Assembly (NCBI RefSeq): GCF_000504205.1
Contig: NZ_AZAJ01000001.1
Location: forward strand, 1,152,879-1,216,878
Direction of reading: 5' to 3'
Source: Methanolobus tindarius DSM 2278
GTDB lineage: Archaea > Halobacteriota > Methanosarcinia > Methanosarcinales > Methanosarcinaceae
DNA: 64,000 nucleotides
Both the position numbers and the translations under genes were made by a program. The first letter of the stretch is position 1; the number at the start of each line of letters is the position of its first letter. Below are positions 21,344 through 31,524 of the stretch, piece by piece. The notes below the pieces were generated by a model, which was given only the letters and a program-made list of their open reading frames with translations, made no database searches and was not told where the DNA came from.

Positions 21344-22551
<1,208 letters not shown>

Positions 22552-22695
22552 CGTTAGAAGAATTATTATTCATATCTGCGGGGGGATATCGGTGCTTACA
22601 TCTGTATATACCAATATCATGCTACATATTCGCATCTGCAGAAATGACGAATAGAAAGATTTGCGAACAAACAACTTATTGACAGAGTGATCGTC

Positions 22696-22935
22696 ATGAA
22701 ATGCTTTGAATGTGCAAAAAATGGAAAAGACAGTGATACAGTTGCTGTCTGCATAATCTGCGGGAGAGGAGTTTGCAAGGACCACCTTGTAAGAGAAGAA
22801 ACACCTGTATGGGAAGGTGAATACAGTATAAAGCTGAAATGTGGAATGGGAATTTCCTGTGACTACAAGGATGTACAGCACTGGAAGAAAGTGCTCTGTA
22901 TACCATGTCATGAAGCCCTGAAGGAGAACTACTAG
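22696..22935 (+). CDS. DUF2180 zinc-ribbon-like protein, copy 1
   Basis: A 79-residue protein with cysteine pairs typical of DUF2180: CFEC at the start, CIIC around residue 19, C-K-D-H near 27 and a final CIPCH near 70. These are arranged like a treble-clef or B-box zinc site. DUF2180 proteins are found in methanogens and have no known role; binding to partner proteins or redox sensing is possible. I chose ATG 22696, behind GAGTGATC; a GTG three codons earlier is within that ribosome binding site. It is followed 8 nt later by a paralogue. Confidence 0.8.
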   Translation: MKCFECAKNGKDSDTVAVCIICGRGVCKDHLVREETPVWEGEYSIKLKCGMGISCDYKDVQHWKKVLCIPCHEALKENY

Positions 22936-22943
22936 GTGATATC

Positions 22944-23162
22944 ATGATGAAATGTTATGACTGCATGGAAGATGGAAACGATACAGAAGCAACATGCGTC
23001 TGCATTGCCTGCGGAAAGGGTCTCTGTAGCGATCACTGCAAAGAACTTGAACTTCCCGTGACTGTTGGACAGCCACCTAACGTACAGAGACTGCCAAAGG
23101 GACTGCCAAGGATTCTTTGCAAATACTGTTTTGACCAGACAATTGAAGACGGATTCGATTAA
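22944..23162 (+). CDS. DUF2180 zinc-ribbon-like protein, copy 2
   Basis: A 72-residue paralogue of the preceding protein: CYDC, CIAC, C-S-D-H and a late CKYC keep the same spacing, while the middle is shorter and proline-rich (PPNVQRLPKG). Ribosome binding site AGGTGATATC immediately before the ATG. It follows copy 1 after 8 nt. The two copies differ in the loop before the last cysteine pair, so they may form a heterodimer or bind different partners; that is speculation. A bulged hairpin follows the stop. Confidence 0.8.
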   Translation: MMKCYDCMEDGNDTEATCVCIACGKGLCSDHCKELELPVTVGQPPNVQRLPKGLPRILCKYCFDQTIEDGFD

Positions 23163-23219: not shown

Positions 23220-23591
23220 ATGTGCGGAGAAAGAGGTAAAGGATGCGGCGGACACAGAGAAATAATTGATGATATGTCCGACAAGCTGGGATTCACACCA
23301 CAGATATTAGAAACACTTGGAGAACTTGAGCCTGAGTTTTTACAGAAATACAATATGTGTAACCACAGGCTTCTCAAAGATGGTGCACTTCCGGCAAAGA
23401 CAAAAATACTCATGGCACTTGCCATCGTTGCATCCAAGCAGTGTGAGCGCTGTGTCATATCACAGATGAAGAGTGCACTTAAGAGTGGAGCAACAAAAGA
23501 AGAGATCATGGAAGTAATGGATGTCATTTTCATCACATCCGGAGCTCCTGCGGTTGCTGCATGCAGAGATGCACTAAAGCAGCTTAAGTAA
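23220..23591 (+). CDS. Carboxymuconolactone decarboxylase/AhpD-like protein
   Basis: A 123-residue all-helical protein of the AhpD/CMD fold. The core has [13 protein letters not shown] (Cys75 and Cys78) followed by [10 protein letters not shown], the typical CMD pattern. In AhpD proteins a histidine four residues after the second cysteine completes the peroxide-reducing or thiol-relay site; here that place is Gln82, so the relay may work differently. The N terminus has extra cysteines ([11 protein letters not shown]), which could bind metal. Thiol-disulfide chemistry or peroxide defence is a family-level inference. Ribosome binding site GGAG; followed by two hairpins. Confidence 0.85.
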
Positions 23592-23611
23592 TTATAAACA
23601 GAGAAACAAAG

Positions 23612-23672
23612 CAGAGGATTTGTTTCCTCTGAATTAATTTTGCTCATTGCACCGGTCTGAAAAAACCGGTGC
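23612..23672 (+). terminator. Two consecutive hairpins before the cytochrome gene
   Basis: CAGAGGA/TCCTCTG (23612-23631) and GCACCGGT/ACCGGTGC (23649-23672) are perfect stems of 7 and 8 bp. They separate the CMD-like gene from the cytochrome gene and probably end or reduce read-through, so the cytochrome operon may have its own promoter. Confidence 0.45.
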
Positions 23673-23713: not shown

Positions 23714-25135
23714 ATGAGGGGGATTTTGGTAAAAGGTAGTTTGTTTTTTGCAATTTTTATTCTGCTACTGGTTAGTGGAAACTTTGCAAATGCAACACCT
23801 GCAACACAGGCTGGAGAATACAGCTCAGACGACTTTGCCTATGAAAGCAGATGCAGACAATGCCATGCAATAATTTACGCTGACTGGGAAGGAACAATGC
23901 ACTTTAACGCATATCTGGACCCATTCTACCTTGAAGAAGTCAAGATAGCAAGCGAAGATACAGATGGCGAGCTGGATGAGTTCTGCTCACGTTGCCACAC
24001 ACCCATAGGAGTCGTCAGCGGTGAAATTCCACCAATTGACGGTTCTGAAATGTCCGATATTGCCAGACTTGGTGTGCAGTGTGATTTCTGTCACGTGGTA
24101 TCAGGAAGCAACGGAACAGGGAATGCTCCTTTCACAGTGAGTCCGGGAGATACGAAATGGGGTCCGTTCAATGATTCAAGAGATGCATATCATAAGTCTG
24201 AATACCTCGAGCTTTATACTCAATCAGAATACTGTGGGATGTGCCATCAGGTGATCAATCCTGTGAACGGACTTGTTATTGATGATACATATTCCACCTG
24301 GAAAGAAAGTCAGTATGCCGAAGAAAATGTGGTATGTCAGGACTGCCATATGACAGAAGGTATAACTGAGTTCAAGGCGAATCCCGGACGTGCCAGTTCA
24401 AGTGCCCCGAAAAGAGATCATATTTCATCACATGACATTGTAGGTGCCAATACCCTGATACCACCAATGTTCGGTGCTGAAAACGTAGCTGAAATGGCAG
24501 TTGAAAGACTGGAAAAAGCCACAACAATTGAATTAACAGCACCTGAAATTGCATCAGCGGGTGATGAAGTCACTATTGATGTAGCCATTACAAACTCAGG
24601 AGCCGGACATAAGATCCCTACCGGGGTATCTGAAATCAGGGAAATATGGCTTGAAGTCACAGCTACAGATGCGAACGGTGAGAGCATATATGATGCAGGT
24701 AGCCTTGATGCGGACGGAAATATTATCGATGCAAAGATGCTGTACAACAATGTCCTTGGAGACACTAACGGCGAAGAAACAAAGAGTTTCTGGCTTGCCG
24801 AAAGCATTCTTGAGGATAATAGAATAGCTCCAAAGGAAACTGTAACCGAACATCACTCGTTTGTTCTTCCGGAGAATGCTGTTTATCCTATTACAGTGGA
24901 AAGTACACTGAAATACAGGTCAGCCCCACAGGATATGATCGATCATCTTCTGGGTGAAGAAACAGAAGTTCCGGTTGTTGACATGAACGAAATGTCTGCA
25001 ATAATTTATGACCCGTCAACACCTGCAAATGAAAGAACCCAGCCCGAACCAGAATCAGAAAGTACACCGGGATTCGGTGTAGTTACTGCTGCAATGGTTC
25101 TTGGATTTACGATGTACGTCTTAAAGAGAAAATAA
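23714..25135 (+). CDS. Secreted pentaheme cytochrome c with PGF-CTERM surface anchor
   Basis: A 473-residue exported protein. A signal peptide (basic start, hydrophobic stretch at about 8-21, ANA cleavage region) is followed by five CxxCH heme sites at residues 47-51, 91-95, 123-127, 174-178 and 208-212. The spacing resembles the cytochrome c554-type multiheme family. Residues about 270-430 look like a beta-rich domain without cysteines, then comes a Pro/Glu/Ser linker and a C-terminal TPGFG motif, hydrophobic helix and KRK, which is the PGF-CTERM archaeosortase signal. The mature protein should be lipid-anchored outside the membrane. Ribosome binding site GAGGAGAGG. The next gene starts 15 nt later. 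It differs from the seven-heme MmcA by heme count. Role in extracellular electron transfer is inference. Confidence 0.9.
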   Translation: MRGILVKGSLFFAIFILLLVSGNFANATPATQAGEYSSDDFAYESRCRQCHAIIYADWEGTMHFNAYLDPFYLEEVKIASEDTDGELDEFCSRCHTPIGVVSGEIPPIDGSEMSDIARLGVQCDFCHVVSGSNGTGNAPFTVSPGDTKWGPFNDSRDAYHKSEYLELYTQSEYCGMCHQVINPVNGLVIDDTYSTWKESQYAEENVVCQDCHMTEGITEFKANPGRASSSAPKRDHISSHDIVGANTLIPPMFGAENVAEMAVERLEKATTIELTAPEIASAGDEVTIDVAITNSGAGHKIPTGVSEIREIWLEVTATDANGESIYDAGSLDADGNIIDAKMLYNNVLGDTNGEETKSFWLAESILEDNRIAPKETVTEHHSFVLPENAVYPITVESTLKYRSAPQDMIDHLLGEETEVPVVDMNEMSAIIYDPSTPANERTQPEPESESTPGFGVVTAAMVLGFTMYVLKRK

Positions 25136-25150
25136 TGGAGGAATACAAAA

Positions 25151-25342
25151 ATGCCACCAGAAGTAGATTTAGATAAATGTGAAGGAATAGGAGCCTGTGC
25201 ACAGGCATGCCCAACAGATGTTATTGAAGTACAGGATGATGCGGATGGAAATCCAAAATCTGTCATCGCACGTCCTGACGACTGTGTGGAATGTGGAAAC
25301 TGTGTTGATGCCTGCCCACAGGAAGCAATAACACTGGAATAA
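25151..25342 (+). CDS. Two-cluster ferredoxin with an incomplete first cluster motif
   Basis: A 63-residue ferredoxin. The second motif is complete (CVECGNCVDACP, cysteines at about 43, 46, 49 and 53). The first reads CEGIGACAQACP: Cys10, Cys16 and Cys20 are present but position 13, where the second ligand should be, is Ile. This cluster may be [3Fe-4S] or a labile [4Fe-4S], so the protein may be of the seven-iron type. The ATG follows AATGGAGG. It lies 15 nt behind the cytochrome gene and 19 nt ahead of a flavoprotein gene, which suggests it carries electrons among the products of this operon. Confidence 0.92.
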   Translation: MPPEVDLDKCEGIGACAQACPTDVIEVQDDADGNPKSVIARPDDCVECGNCVDACPQEAITLE

Positions 25343-25361
25343 ACAAATACGGAGTGCCACC

Positions 25362-25991
25362 ATGTCAGAAGACAGAAGCATTCGCCTGCTGGGTATCTCA
25401 GGAAGCCCCAGGAAGAAGTCCACAGATTATATTGTAAATGAAGCTCTCAGATTTGCACAGGAAAAGTATGATGTTGAGATTGAATATTTCTCTGCCAGAG
25501 GCAAAGAGATGAAATTCTGCATCCACTGTGACTATTGTGTACGCAAGAAAGAAGGCTGTATTCACAAAGATGATCTTGTGGAACTCTACGATAAAATGCT
25601 CTGGGCAGACGCATGGATTATCGGCACTCCGGTATACCAGGGTACTTTAAGTGCCCAGACTAAAACTATTATGGACAGATGCCGCGCTGTTGTTGCACGC
25701 AATCCAAAGTCATTTATGAACAAAGTTGGCGCTGCTGCAGCCGTTGGCGGAGACCGGATGGGCGGACAGGAGCCAGCCATACAAAATATTCTCAATTTCT
25801 ATGTCATCAGTGAAATGATACCCGTTGCAGGCGGATCATTCGGATCAAACCTTGGTGGAACTTTCTGGTCACAGGACAGAGGTGCTGAAGGTGCTGCAGA
25901 AGATTCAGAAGGCATCAGAAGCCTTCACAGGACAATGAACAAACTCATAAAAACGGCCATAGCAACAAAAGACCTGCGCAAGGAGGAGTAA
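25362..25991 (+). CDS. Iron-sulfur flavoprotein, Isf family
   Basis: A 209-residue flavodoxin-fold protein: GISGSPRKKS near residue 11 is the FMN phosphate loop and GTPVYQGTLS near 87 the second FMN loop. The compact cysteine motif C-x2-C-x2-C-x6-C (in FCIHCDYCV and ending EGC) is that of Isf from Methanosarcina, which holds a [4Fe-4S] cluster next to FMN. Isf accepts electrons from ferredoxin and can reduce O2 and H2O2. The neighbouring ferredoxin is an obvious donor. The stop overlaps the ribosome binding site of the next gene. Confidence 0.9.
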   Translation: MSEDRSIRLLGISGSPRKKSTDYIVNEALRFAQEKYDVEIEYFSARGKEMKFCIHCDYCVRKKEGCIHKDDLVELYDKMLWADAWIIGTPVYQGTLSAQTKTIMDRCRAVVARNPKSFMNKVGAAAAVGGDRMGGQEPAIQNILNFYVISEMIPVAGGSFGSNLGGTFWSQDRGAEGAAEDSEGIRSLHRTMNKLIKTAIATKDLRKEE

Positions 25992-25993
25992 AT

Positions 25994-26692
25994 CTGGAAT
26001 TTGAAGAACCTGTTACAGAGATTATAAAGCGGACTTACAACGTAAAAAGTTTCAGGTTCAAGAGACCGGATGACTTTGATTACAAAGCAGGACAATATGT
26101 GATTATCAAGCTGTTCAACGGAGAGAAAAAAATAGGTAAACCATTTACACTTTCCAGCAGTCCAACTGAAAAAGATCATATCGAATTTACAAAAAAGCTC
26201 ACCGGGCATGAATTCTCAAACATGCTTGATGCTATGGTTCCGGGAGACGAAGCAATTATTAAAGGTCCATTTGGTAAACTGACATTTGAGGGTGAACATG
26301 ATAAGATTGCACTTCTTAGTGGCGGAATTGGAATCACACCAATGATCAGTATCTGCAAATACTGCACTGATATGAAACTTGATACGGATATCATGCTGAT
26401 ATGCAGTGACAAAACCGAAGAGGACATGATATTCACAGAAGAACTTGGGGAAATGCAAAAGCAAAACCCAAACCTCAAGGTTTTCAATACCCTCACACGA
26501 GCCTCAGAAAACTGGACAGGATGCAGGGAGCGCATTTGTGAGAATCTTATACTAAGGGAATTACCGGATTATTCTGAAAGAACATTCTACGTATGCGGAC
26601 CGCCTCCCATGGTTGACGCAATGGTGGAACTACTTCAGGCTATGAAAATACCCGACAGTGAGATCAACAAGGAATCACTGATAGGATACTAA
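25994..26692 (+). CDS. FNR-like FAD/NAD(P)H oxidoreductase, CTG start
   Basis: A protein of the ferredoxin-NAD(P)+ reductase superfamily: FAD-binding beta barrel with a GQYV segment near residue 32 and KPFTLSS, a GGIGITP nucleotide-binding loop near 112, and a C-terminal CGPPPMV motif. No ATG, GTG or TTG lies before the FAD domain in this frame; the first such codon is GTG 26099, which would delete the first strands of the barrel. A CTG at 25994 sits 7 nt after AAGGAGG and gives 232 residues with a natural MEFEEPV-type start, so I place the start there. It could link NAD(P)H with the flavoprotein and ferredoxin of the same operon. No 2Fe-2S domain is present. Confidence 0.82.
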   Translation: MEFEEPVTEIIKRTYNVKSFRFKRPDDFDYKAGQYVIIKLFNGEKKIGKPFTLSSSPTEKDHIEFTKKLTGHEFSNMLDAMVPGDEAIIKGPFGKLTFEGEHDKIALLSGGIGITPMISICKYCTDMKLDTDIMLICSDKTEEDMIFTEELGEMQKQNPNLKVFNTLTRASENWTGCRERICENLILRELPDYSERTFYVCGPPPMVDAMVELLQAMKIPDSEINKESLIGY

Positions 26693-26714
26693 AAAAGAAC
26701 AGAAGGCACATATA

Positions 26715-27260
26715 ATGAAAAGGATAGCATGGGGAATCACAGGTTCAGGCGACCTTATCAAAGAAACGTATGAAACAATGGTGGATATCAAAAACAAGAC
26801 CGATCTTGAGATAATGGTTTTTCTTTCAAAGGAAGGAGAGACCGTTATGAAATGGTACCACATGTGGAATGATATACAGAGGGATTTCCCTAATTTCAAG
26901 ACAGAAGGCGGACCAAATTCGCCATTTCTCGCAGGACCGCTTCAGGTTGGATACTATGACGCACTTATCATTGCTCCGATGACTTCCAACAGCGTTGCAA
27001 AGATCGTATGCGGAATAGGGGACACTCTTGTCACAAATGTCGTATCACAGACAGCAAAGGGCAGTACACCAATTTACATACTCCCGGTTGACAGGGAAAT
27101 GGGAACTGTTACGACATATTCCCCGGAAGGACGTGAGATGGTACTCAAAATGCGTGAAGTAGACGTATCCAATACAAAGAAACTCGCCCAAATGGAAAAC
27201 ATAACTGTAATTAACAGCCCGGATGACATCTACGACATTGTTGGCGTGAGCAAGGATTAA
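26715..27260 (+). CDS. afpA: Archaeoflavoprotein AfpA
   Basis: A 181-residue FMN protein of the flavoprotein (HFCD) superfamily with GITGSGD near residue 9, FLSKEGE and APMTSNSVAKI near residue 90. It resembles AfpA of Archaeoglobus fulgidus, which accepts electrons from ferredoxin and CO dehydrogenase. Related proteins also include DmrX-type dihydromethanopterin reductases, so a pterin reductase role is an alternative. It is the last gene of the operon, 22 nt after the FNR-like gene; its stop overlaps by a few bases the stop of the convergent DUF429 gene. Confidence 0.85.
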   Translation: MKRIAWGITGSGDLIKETYETMVDIKNKTDLEIMVFLSKEGETVMKWYHMWNDIQRDFPNFKTEGGPNSPFLAGPLQVGYYDALIIAPMTSNSVAKIVCGIGDTLVTNVVSQTAKGSTPIYILPVDREMGTVTTYSPEGREMVLKMREVDVSNTKKLAQMENITVINSPDDIYDIVGVSKD

Positions 27261-29486: not shown

Positions 29487-29975
29487 ATGAAAGATATACT
29501 ACAGGAAATTGCAGAGGAGCTTGACCACCTTAAGTCACTTGACGAGGCAATTGCTCTTGCAATAGAACTTGAGGAAGAGGGAATGGCATATTACAGTGAA
29601 AAGGCATCGGTAATGAAGAACGCAACTGCCAGCAAATTGTATGTGTTCCTTGCAGACGAAGAAAAAAAGCATGCAGGATATCTCCAGAAGTACAGGGAAA
29701 GCAAGAATATCCCTGAAGTAGAGTTCACATATCCTAAGTTTGAAGCATCCTTCAGCGAAGAATTCTCAGATGAAAAGCTTGAAGAAATAGGAATATTGCT
29801 TGCTGCCCTAAGATTTGAGCATAAGAGTGAATATTTCTATATGGAGCTTGCCAAAAGGGCAGAAAGCGAAGAACAAAAGGTATTCTTTGAACAGGTTGCC
29901 GCAGCTGAAAGAGGTCACTACATGATAATTGATGAGCTGCTTGATGATGCAACCCAGTTCAGGATGCAGACTTAA
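29487..29975 (+). CDS. Ferritin-like di-iron protein (rubrerythrin/erythrin type)
   Basis: A 162-residue four-helix protein with two E-x-H type pairs: EEEGMAYY near residue 31, DEEKKH near residue 56, RFEHKSEYFY near 110 and AAERGHY near 138. This is the di-iron ligand pattern of erythrin/rubrerythrin domains; the C-terminal rubredoxin domain of classical rubrerythrin is missing. Family members reduce peroxide or store iron. Ribosome binding site AAAGGAG. It is 17 nt ahead of fprA, so they should form an oxygen-defence operon. Confidence 0.85.
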   Translation: MKDILQEIAEELDHLKSLDEAIALAIELEEEGMAYYSEKASVMKNATASKLYVFLADEEKKHAGYLQKYRESKNIPEVEFTYPKFEASFSEEFSDEKLEEIGILLAALRFEHKSEYFYMELAKRAESEEQKVFFEQVAAAERGHYMIIDELLDDATQFRMQT

Positions 29976-29992: not shown

Positions 29993-31204
29993 ATGGACGA
30001 TTACAAGCCACTTGAAATTGCAAAAGGAATCTACTGGGTAGGTGTGGTTGACTGGAATCTGCGTGACTTCCACGGATATGAAACACCGAAGGGAGGAAGT
30101 TATAATTCATACCTCGTAATCGATGAGAAAATTGCACTCATTGACACGGTAAAAGCTCCGTTTGCCGGAGAGATGATCAAGCGCATCAGTCAGATAATCG
30201 ATCCTTCTAAGATAGATTACATTATATCAAACCACGTTGAGATGGACCACTCCAGTTCCATTTCCAGGGTTTTGGAACTTGCACCGAATGCAAAAGTATT
30301 TGCATCATCAAAAGGCCAGACCGGTCTTTCAGAGTATTATAAAGAAGAAGGCTTTGATAACTGGGATCTGAATGTTGTTAAAACAGGTGATGAGTTAAGC
30401 CTTGGTGAAAGGACATTGATGTTCATTGAAGCAACAATGCTCCACTGGCCTGACAGCATGCAGACCTATGTGAAAGAAGACAAACTCCTATTCTCAAACG
30501 ATGCATTCGGTCAGCACATCGCTACATCCAAACGCTTTGATGATGAAGTTGATGACGTAATGGAAGATGCCGGCATCTACTACGCTAATATCCTTTTGCC
30601 TTTTGGAGGACAGGTTCTCAAATATATTGAGAAGCTCAAAGGACTGGAAGTACACCCAGAAATGATAGCTCCTGCACATGGAATAATCTGGAGAGATAAT
30701 GTTTCAAAGGTGATGACACAATACCTGAAATGGGCACATGGTGAAACTGTTCCAAAAGTCCTTGTTATTTATGACACCATGTGGGGCAGCACTGAAAAGA
30801 TGGCAATGGAAATTGTAGAAGGCGCAAGATCTGCAGGTGTTGAAGTGCGCCTGAGGCACCTGAGAAAGAATGACTGGAGCATGACAATGAAGGAACTCAT
30901 GGATGCGCCGGTGGTTGCCATAGGTTCACCTACTATGAATAATGGAATGTTTTTCACCAATGCCGGATTTTTGACATACCTTACAGGACTGCATCCTAAA
31001 GGAAAGAAGTACTTCCTGTTCGGCTCATACGGGTGGGGAGGCGGTGCAGTCAAAGGAATGGAAAAGATGATGGAAAGTGCAAAGTTTGAGCTTGCCATGG
31101 AAAGTATGCAAATTAAGTTCAGACCTTACGAAGAAGATAAGAAAGCTTGCAGAGAAATCGGATATAAGCTTGCCGAAATTGCAAAAGACAATGCAAACTC
31201 TTAA
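29993..31204 (+). CDS. fprA: F420H2 oxidase (flavodiiron protein FprA)
   Basis: Reduces O2 to water (or NO) with electrons from F420H2. The 403-residue protein has the metallo-beta-lactamase-like di-iron domain with H81-x-E83-x-D85-H86 (HVEMDH), His151, Asp170 and a later APAHG histidine, then a C-terminal flavodoxin domain (about residues 255-400) with the FMN loop YDTMWGSTEKM. This is the class A flavodiiron architecture; methanogen members use F420H2. The ribosome binding site is AGAGG. Neighbours, a ferritin-like protein and a ferredoxin:thioredoxin reductase, agree with a role in oxygen tolerance. Confidence 0.93.
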   Translation: MDDYKPLEIAKGIYWVGVVDWNLRDFHGYETPKGGSYNSYLVIDEKIALIDTVKAPFAGEMIKRISQIIDPSKIDYIISNHVEMDHSSSISRVLELAPNAKVFASSKGQTGLSEYYKEEGFDNWDLNVVKTGDELSLGERTLMFIEATMLHWPDSMQTYVKEDKLLFSNDAFGQHIATSKRFDDEVDDVMEDAGIYYANILLPFGGQVLKYIEKLKGLEVHPEMIAPAHGIIWRDNVSKVMTQYLKWAHGETVPKVLVIYDTMWGSTEKMAMEIVEGARSAGVEVRLRHLRKNDWSMTMKELMDAPVVAIGSPTMNNGMFFTNAGFLTYLTGLHPKGKKYFLFGSYGWGGGAVKGMEKMMESAKFELAMESMQIKFRPYEEDKKACREIGYKLAEIAKDNANS

Positions 31205-31248
31205 ATTAATGGAGATGAATGTTTATTCCAACATATGAGAGTGTTACT

Positions 31249-31524
31249 ATGAAATTCGAAAATGATCTAGAAGCAGAATTTTATGAAAGGTCCAAGAAAA
31301 ACGCAGAAACAACAGGATACAAGCTCAACACCGACTGGGATGTAATCACAACTGCTGTAAAAGGCATTTCCAACAACAAGAAAGAGTTTGGTGAATGGTA
31401 CTGCTTCTGCCAGAAGAGAACCGGAGATAAGGAGCAGGATAAGAAGATCATCTGCCCATGCGCTGCAAGAACAAGGGATGTTGAAACCCGTGGTTCATGT
31501 AAGTGCGGACTTTACATTAAATAA
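31249..31524 (+). CDS. Ferredoxin:thioredoxin reductase catalytic subunit
   Basis: A 91-residue protein with three C-x-C pairs (CFC near residue 52, CPC near 69 and CKC near 84), the pattern of the FTR beta subunit, where a [4Fe-4S] cluster and an active-site disulfide pass electrons from ferredoxin to thioredoxin. Spacing between pairs is a little shorter than in the plant enzyme but the order is right. An in-frame ATG at 31219 adds ten residues and follows GGAGATGA closely, so either start is possible. No thioredoxin and no FTR alpha subunit are adjacent; archaeal forms work without the plant-type partner. A strong terminator follows. Confidence 0.85.
   Translation: MKFENDLEAEFYERSKKNAETTGYKLNTDWDVITTAVKGISNNKKEFGEWYCFCQKRTGDKEQDKKIICPCAARTRDVETRGSCKCGLYIK

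Follow-up and report, generated by a model that had tools for sequence, protein, structure and literature searches.

A 64,000-nt stretch of the closed, 3.15-Mb genome of Methanolobus tindarius DSM 2278 (the window) carries five + strand genes at 23714-27260, encoding an exported pentaheme c-type cytochrome (CYT), a small ferredoxin (FD), an Isf-type iron-sulfur flavoprotein (Isf), an FNR-like flavoprotein (FNR) and the archaeoflavoprotein AfpA. We found that this block sits inside a longer conserved gene order, and that oxygen-defence genes accompany CYT relatives across archaea and some bacteria. CYT and the block very probably belong to an oxygen-defence set of genes. We somewhat favour the more specific reading that the five genes occupy the centre of a conserved Methanosarcinales island for defence against oxygen and reactive oxygen species (ROS), with CYT as its extracytoplasmic electron-delivery arm; we give the mechanism of such an arm that slight preference at most. 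A role of CYT in oxygen protection is more likely than one in metal respiration. A sequence-only reading of this DNA had put forward a new extracellular electron-transfer (EET) path from NAD(P)H or ferredoxin through the flavoproteins to CYT, with oxidative stress as a secondary suggestion. The secondary suggestion gained ground, the genes for oxygen and ROS detoxification being constant company in the Methanosarcinales and beyond.

The conserved island around the five genes

The block and its conserved partners in the window are as follows.

22687-22935, + strand: DUF2180 protein, first copy, conserved upstream partner
22944-23162, + strand: DUF2180 protein, second copy, conserved upstream partner
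23220-23591, + strand: AhpD/CMD-family protein (CMD), the most constant CYT neighbour in Methanosarcinales
23714-25135, + strand: CYT, 473 aa, with a Cytochrome_C554-type heme domain, a beta-sandwich (residues 270-432) and a C-terminal anchor helix
23852-23866, 23984-23998, 24080-24094, 24233-24247 and 24335-24349, + strand: the five CxxCH sites of CYT
25151-25342, + strand: FD, dicluster ferredoxin, 63 aa, first motif without its second Cys; a 3Fe-4S or open-site 4Fe-4S cluster is predicted
25362-25991, + strand: Isf, FMN_red fold with CX2CX2CX6C
25994-26692, + strand: FNR, FAD/NAD(P)-binding, CTG start behind AAGGAGG
26715-27260, + strand: AfpA, TIGR02699 at 260.9 bits (cut-off 192.45)
29487-29975, + strand: rubrerythrin-family protein, conserved island member
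29993-31204, + strand: FprA-type flavodiiron protein (F420H2 oxidase family), conserved island member
31219-31524, + strand: ferredoxin:thioredoxin reductase (FTR) catalytic-chain-like protein, conserved island member

The block genes are separated by 15, 19, 2 and 22 nt, as first described, and family searches confirm the identity of each. The compact CX2CX2CX4-7C motif of Isf proteins is present in an FMN-binding flavodoxin-like fold, and AfpA passes its curated cut-off. The unusual cluster motif of the ferredoxin was borne out: the first motif reads C-x5-C-x3-CP, and the usual second Cys is missing in every ortholog found. The CTG start of FNR has a good Shine-Dalgarno sequence and is kept in several Methanolobus species; it is credible because the aligned codon in orthologs is CTG, TTG, GTG or ATG. 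CYT, described earlier as a secreted cytochrome, has a hydrophobic N-terminal export signal and exactly five CxxCH motifs (kept in 36/36 and in 73/73 aligned homologs), and cytochrome c assembly proteins are encoded in the host genome. FD, Isf, FNR and AfpA lack an export signal, and the operon encodes nothing that crosses the membrane.

The C-terminus of CYT consists of PGF, a helix and a KRK tail, with the helix at 454-472 in an AlphaFold2 (AF2) model. The earlier assignment of a PGF-CTERM tail is plausible: a PGF/hydrophobic/basic tail is seen in nearly all orthologs, one homolog from the ANME-1 group of anaerobic methanotrophic (ANME) archaea exceeds the Pfam PGF-CTERM cut-off, and the gene for archaeosortase A (ArtA) is present in the host genome. 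The formal match falls short in this species, at 13.1 bits against the curated model and its cut-off of 24.5.

The sequence-only reading overlooked the partners on the same strand, namely the two DUF2180 genes and CMD upstream and the rubrerythrin, FprA and FTR-like genes downstream, all of which travel with the block. CYT matches were found in 39 of 60 relatives, including 27/27 Methanolobus genomes (25 apparently intact, two remnants), and at E<=1e-20 in 100 of the 238 genomes of the class. In the nearest named relative, Methanolobus bombayensis, CYT is 87% identical. A neighbourhood search bore out the proposal that the five genes are a conserved unit, since their order is kept throughout Methanolobus, far beyond chance. 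The full block, with divergent FpoF-like/Mer genes and DUF2180-DUF2180-CMD ahead and rubrerythrin-FprA-FTR behind, is kept across Methanolobus and largely kept in Methanococcoides, Methanohalophilus and Methanomethylovorans; the island order is conserved in these four genera and in Methanosarcina. Other genera show a rubrerythrin with a rubredoxin domain between FNR and AfpA, and a superoxide reductase (SOR) gene immediately upstream of CYT.

A Methanosarcina genome of 5,751,492 bp, which we take to be that of M. acetivorans C2A, has the order DUF2180 twice, CMD, SOR, five-heme cytochrome, Isf, AfpA, rubrerythrin-like and FprA. The window keeps this single-strand order as DUF2180-DUF2180-CMD-CYT-Isf-AfpA followed farther on by rubrerythrin-FprA. 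From gene order and heme count, MA3739 would be the CYT ortholog. The island itself is already known, as M. acetivorans MA4664/MA3734-3743 has been called a putative oxidative-stress operon (PMC3729527, citing Lessner and Ferry 2007). Beyond that operon note, our literature search found no paper tying the CYT family to oxygen defence.

Two variants were seen within the Methanosarcinales. At three loci of this order (L084, L095, L049) CYT is followed by DsrE-like, NifS and IscU-thioredoxin-reductase-like fusion genes, which suggests Fe-S repair. One genome (G042, L054:5146-8804) encodes a distant (~30%) five-heme paralog; its gene directly follows those for a membrane protein and an FrhB-like F420-dependent subunit, which may point to another path for electrons.

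Distant relatives and transcription signals

A scan of public genomes gave 478 CYT relatives, and the best 79 loci were read, with neighbour families (FprA, catalase, peroxiredoxin, ferritin, rubrerythrin, desulfoferrodoxin, Fur) confirmed by Pfam. Distant relatives in ANME-1, Methanolliviera, Methanoperedens and some bacteria adjoin genes for SOR, catalase, peroxiredoxin, rubrerythrin, ferritin, FprA and Fur-family regulators. These neighbours of distant relatives are new in this analysis. At least one oxygen-defence gene is present in 23 of the 35 loci outside Methanosarcinaceae. Together these loci have 86 oxygen-defence matches in the 257 kb within 5 kb of CYT vs none in 173 kb farther away, a contrast that is inflated because the ANME-1 loci are interrelated and the markers were partly picked from near loci.

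In ANME-1-type loci CYT is flanked to one side by genes for a Fur-family regulator, a NapC/NirT-like cytochrome and a rubrerythrin-like protein, and to the other by SOR, catalase, peroxiredoxin, ferritin and FprA. The NapC/NirT-like cytochrome, encoded upstream of CYT, has five CxxCH motifs and an N-terminal membrane anchor. In two such loci (L109, L116) Isf-AfpA stand immediately ahead of CYT. FprA adjoins CYT in several Methanoperedens loci. The bacterial copies of CYT are mostly lipoprotein-like; some are near rubrerythrin and Fur-family genes and others stand alone.

Two further features of the window concern transcription.

22526-22550, no strand assigned: 25-bp palindrome TTACCG-N13-CGGTAA with perfect arms, TTACCGTTACAGATATATCCGGTAA, located between DUF2180 and the divergent mer gene and kept in Methanolobus
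23599-23672, no strand assigned: two terminator- or processing-like hairpins in the CMD-CYT gap, right after the CMD stop and before CYT

The first hairpin keeps its position in most relatives with a changed stem sequence, and its z-score is below -2 in 16/29; the leader in the window has z = -3.0. An Rfam search gave no match. The hairpin after CMD suggests a terminator or processing site, in agreement with the earlier choice of CYT as the first gene of the unit. It also gives some support, together with the stand-alone bacterial copies, to the notion that the function of CYT is unrelated and that co-regulation brought the gene into the island, with CYT separately transcribed or processed. 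We regard this as very improbable, as the same functional class adjoins CYT in distant lineages. The palindrome may serve the divergent promoter region as an operator. It has one further exact-arm match in the host genome, and a genome-wide regulon motif was rejected for lack of enrichment there.

Electron transfer, oxygen protection and the alternatives

We infer the electron donors and acceptors of CYT, and its induction by oxygen, as part of the following scheme. Within the cell, the cytosolic FD, Isf, FNR and AfpA, with the adjoining rubrerythrin and FprA, would reduce O2 and peroxide at the expense of ferredoxin, F420H2 or NAD(P)H. Anchored CYT would take electrons from the membrane carrier pool, either directly, through MmcA/Rnf, or in ANME-1 by way of the NapC/NirT-like membrane cytochrome, and may reduce O2, superoxide or peroxide at the cell surface, either itself or by passing the electrons to a partner that does so.

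The flavoproteins and CYT can be lost separately. In one Methanolobus genome (G026) CYT is lost, in another (G016) only a C-terminal piece is left, and FD, Isf, FNR and AfpA are intact in both. Isf-(FNR)-AfpA-rubrerythrin is retained but CYT is missing in Methanosarcina loci G154, G155 and G157 and in genomes G143 and G150; at the three loci CMD and SOR are gone together with CYT. Since the flavoprotein block is kept where CYT is deleted, truncated or absent, the flavoproteins do not need CYT. Methanosarcina loci, including that of the 5,751,492-bp genome, lack FD and FNR yet keep CYT, and therefore the NAD(P)H branch is dispensable too. An obligatory linear chain from the flavoproteins to CYT was rejected because either part can be found alone. 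Isf, FNR and AfpA are away from CYT in the order's other families, yet often beside catalase, SOR, rubrerythrin or FprA, with the exception of L153-L155, L157 and L158. CMD-(SOR)-CYT and Isf-(FNR)-(Rbr)-AfpA-Rbr-FprA thus resemble two modules within a single defence set more than one linear path.

A membrane quinone-reactive subunit was reported missing from the operon in the sequence-only reading. Our searches agree: neither a quinone- nor a phenazine-reactive membrane subunit was found in the Methanolobus loci, and the NapC/NirT-like cytochrome is confined to ANME-1-type loci. The gaps between block genes in Methanosarcinaceae loci hold rubrerythrin, SOR, NifS/IscU-TrxR or unrelated genes, and a membrane subunit hidden in such gaps was rejected.

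Published mutant data bear directly on the EET proposal. Deletion of MA3739 left reduction of anthraquinone-2,6-disulfonate (AQDS) unaffected (PMC6703419), as well as Fe(0)-dependent methanogenesis and direct electron uptake from Geobacter (PMC10989991); across the three tests MmcA alone mattered (PMC6703419, PMC10989991). These results, the separable parts and the missing membrane-crossing partner leave the proposed path weakly supported. A dedicated route from NAD(P)H or ferredoxin through the flavoproteins and surface CYT to Fe(III), humics or electrodes is consistent with the content and spacing of the operon and with the transcript changes given below, but it is improbable given the silent deletion, the flavoproteins retained without CYT, the absence of FD and FNR in Methanosarcina, and the presence of MmcA-Rnf in the same genome as an operon that has no membrane-crossing partner.

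Several observations weigh against oxygen protection, the inflated near/far contrast among them. MA3739 transcripts are up 4.1-fold with AQDS (PMC6703419), higher in cells grown by direct interspecies electron transfer, and about 80% up in an mmcA mutant. MsvR did not bind the tested promoters of the M. acetivorans operon (PMC3729527). In the literature we found no published oxygen or ROS phenotype for CYT and no oxygen test of the MA3739 mutant. An oxygen-defence neighbour is absent from about one third of the distant loci, chiefly bacterial. The SORs near CYT are cytosolic except for one Methanolliviera protein, and therefore a direct handover to SOR at the surface is not general. A secreted SOR as the general acceptor was rejected, the two SORs of the host genome being cytosolic as well and encoded elsewhere. 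The Methanolliviera SOR (L107:5250-5765) has a lipoprotein-like signal and is an exported SOR in an archaeon. The literature search also found no M. acetivorans O2-exposure expression data that name these loci.

The rise of MA3739 transcripts in the mmcA mutant and with AQDS would also fit CYT as a back-up surface electron sink, redundant with MmcA under oxidising conditions and without a specific ROS role. This is unlikely, as it leaves unexplained the linkage to SOR, rubrerythrin, FprA, catalase and Fur-family genes as far as ANME-1 and bacteria. CYT could also itself catalyse the reduction of NO, O2, peroxide or an S/N oxyanion, at a heme that is not strictly His/His-ligated. There are five hemes and four non-motif His (63, 160, 240 and 299) that are kept in 72 or 73 of 73 homologs, and Lys148 is kept in 71/73. 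The best fold match in the PDB, also the top profile match, is pentaheme c552 5ze8 (E 4e-15), and the weak relatives include ExtKL/MccSep-type proteins. However, His236, kept in 65/73 homologs, could complete five bis-His pairs, and the AF2 model (28 sequences, mean pLDDT 75.8), which gives an N-terminal heme domain, then the beta-sandwich and the C-terminal helix, does not resolve the ligands: no heme was modelled and confidence is low at 148-170. We give catalysis by CYT a small probability.

Oxygen protection is thus preferred, with CYT as an electron-delivery arm. A doubtful but possible extension is that the widespread surface-anchored pentaheme family of methanogens, ANME archaea and some bacteria is a respiratory-style extracytoplasmic arm that reduces O2 and ROS, fed by the membrane carrier pool (via the NapC/NirT-like partner in ANME-1). 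In methanogens and ANME archaea, multiheme cytochromes are commonly taken for EET machinery. If the defence role is true, EET gene counts in these archaea include oxygen-defence proteins and need revision, and strict anaerobes possess a cell-surface defence supplied by membrane electron carriers. Such a role would account for the absent electron-transfer phenotype of the MA3739 deletion. The deletion strain exists, so the oxygen-defence idea is directly testable.

Comparison with known systems

Pentaheme cytochrome c552 of Thermochromatium tepidum (PDB 5ze8) shares with CYT the five hemes and a C-terminal beta domain with an HxxPTG motif. Identity is 18% and the TM-score 0.52, and this likeness comes from structure and profile. 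The ExtKL/MccSep multiheme (seleno)proteins (NF040886; PDB 9wt8, 9wt9) share the later heme region and a GHxxPTG beta domain; CYT scores 67.4 bits against the curated ExtKL model, below its cut-off of 250, and its gene has no in-frame UGA. A literature search for MccSep found no paper. The flavoproteins resemble Isf of Methanosarcina, through the shared cysteine motif, and AfpA of Archaeoglobus, through the curated AfpA score; their electron partners here are putative.

MmcA and CYT are both multiheme c-type cytochromes that the same organisms have at the outer face of the membrane, and in the host genome MmcA heads an rnf cluster (TIGR04314, E 5.6e-201; L172:4754-6346). MmcA has seven hemes, belongs to an rnf operon and is OTR-related, whereas CYT has five CxxCH motifs and no rnf genes nearby; the difference in heme number and layout was recognised correctly in the sequence-only reading. 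The closest known system is the M. acetivorans operon, which shares with Methanolobus the five-heme cytochrome and the order DUF2180 twice, CMD, CYT, Isf, AfpA, rubrerythrin-like and FprA. The Methanosarcina version has SOR before CYT and lacks FD and FNR genes, whereas the Methanolobus window has both, as well as DUF429/IPS genes between AfpA and rubrerythrin.

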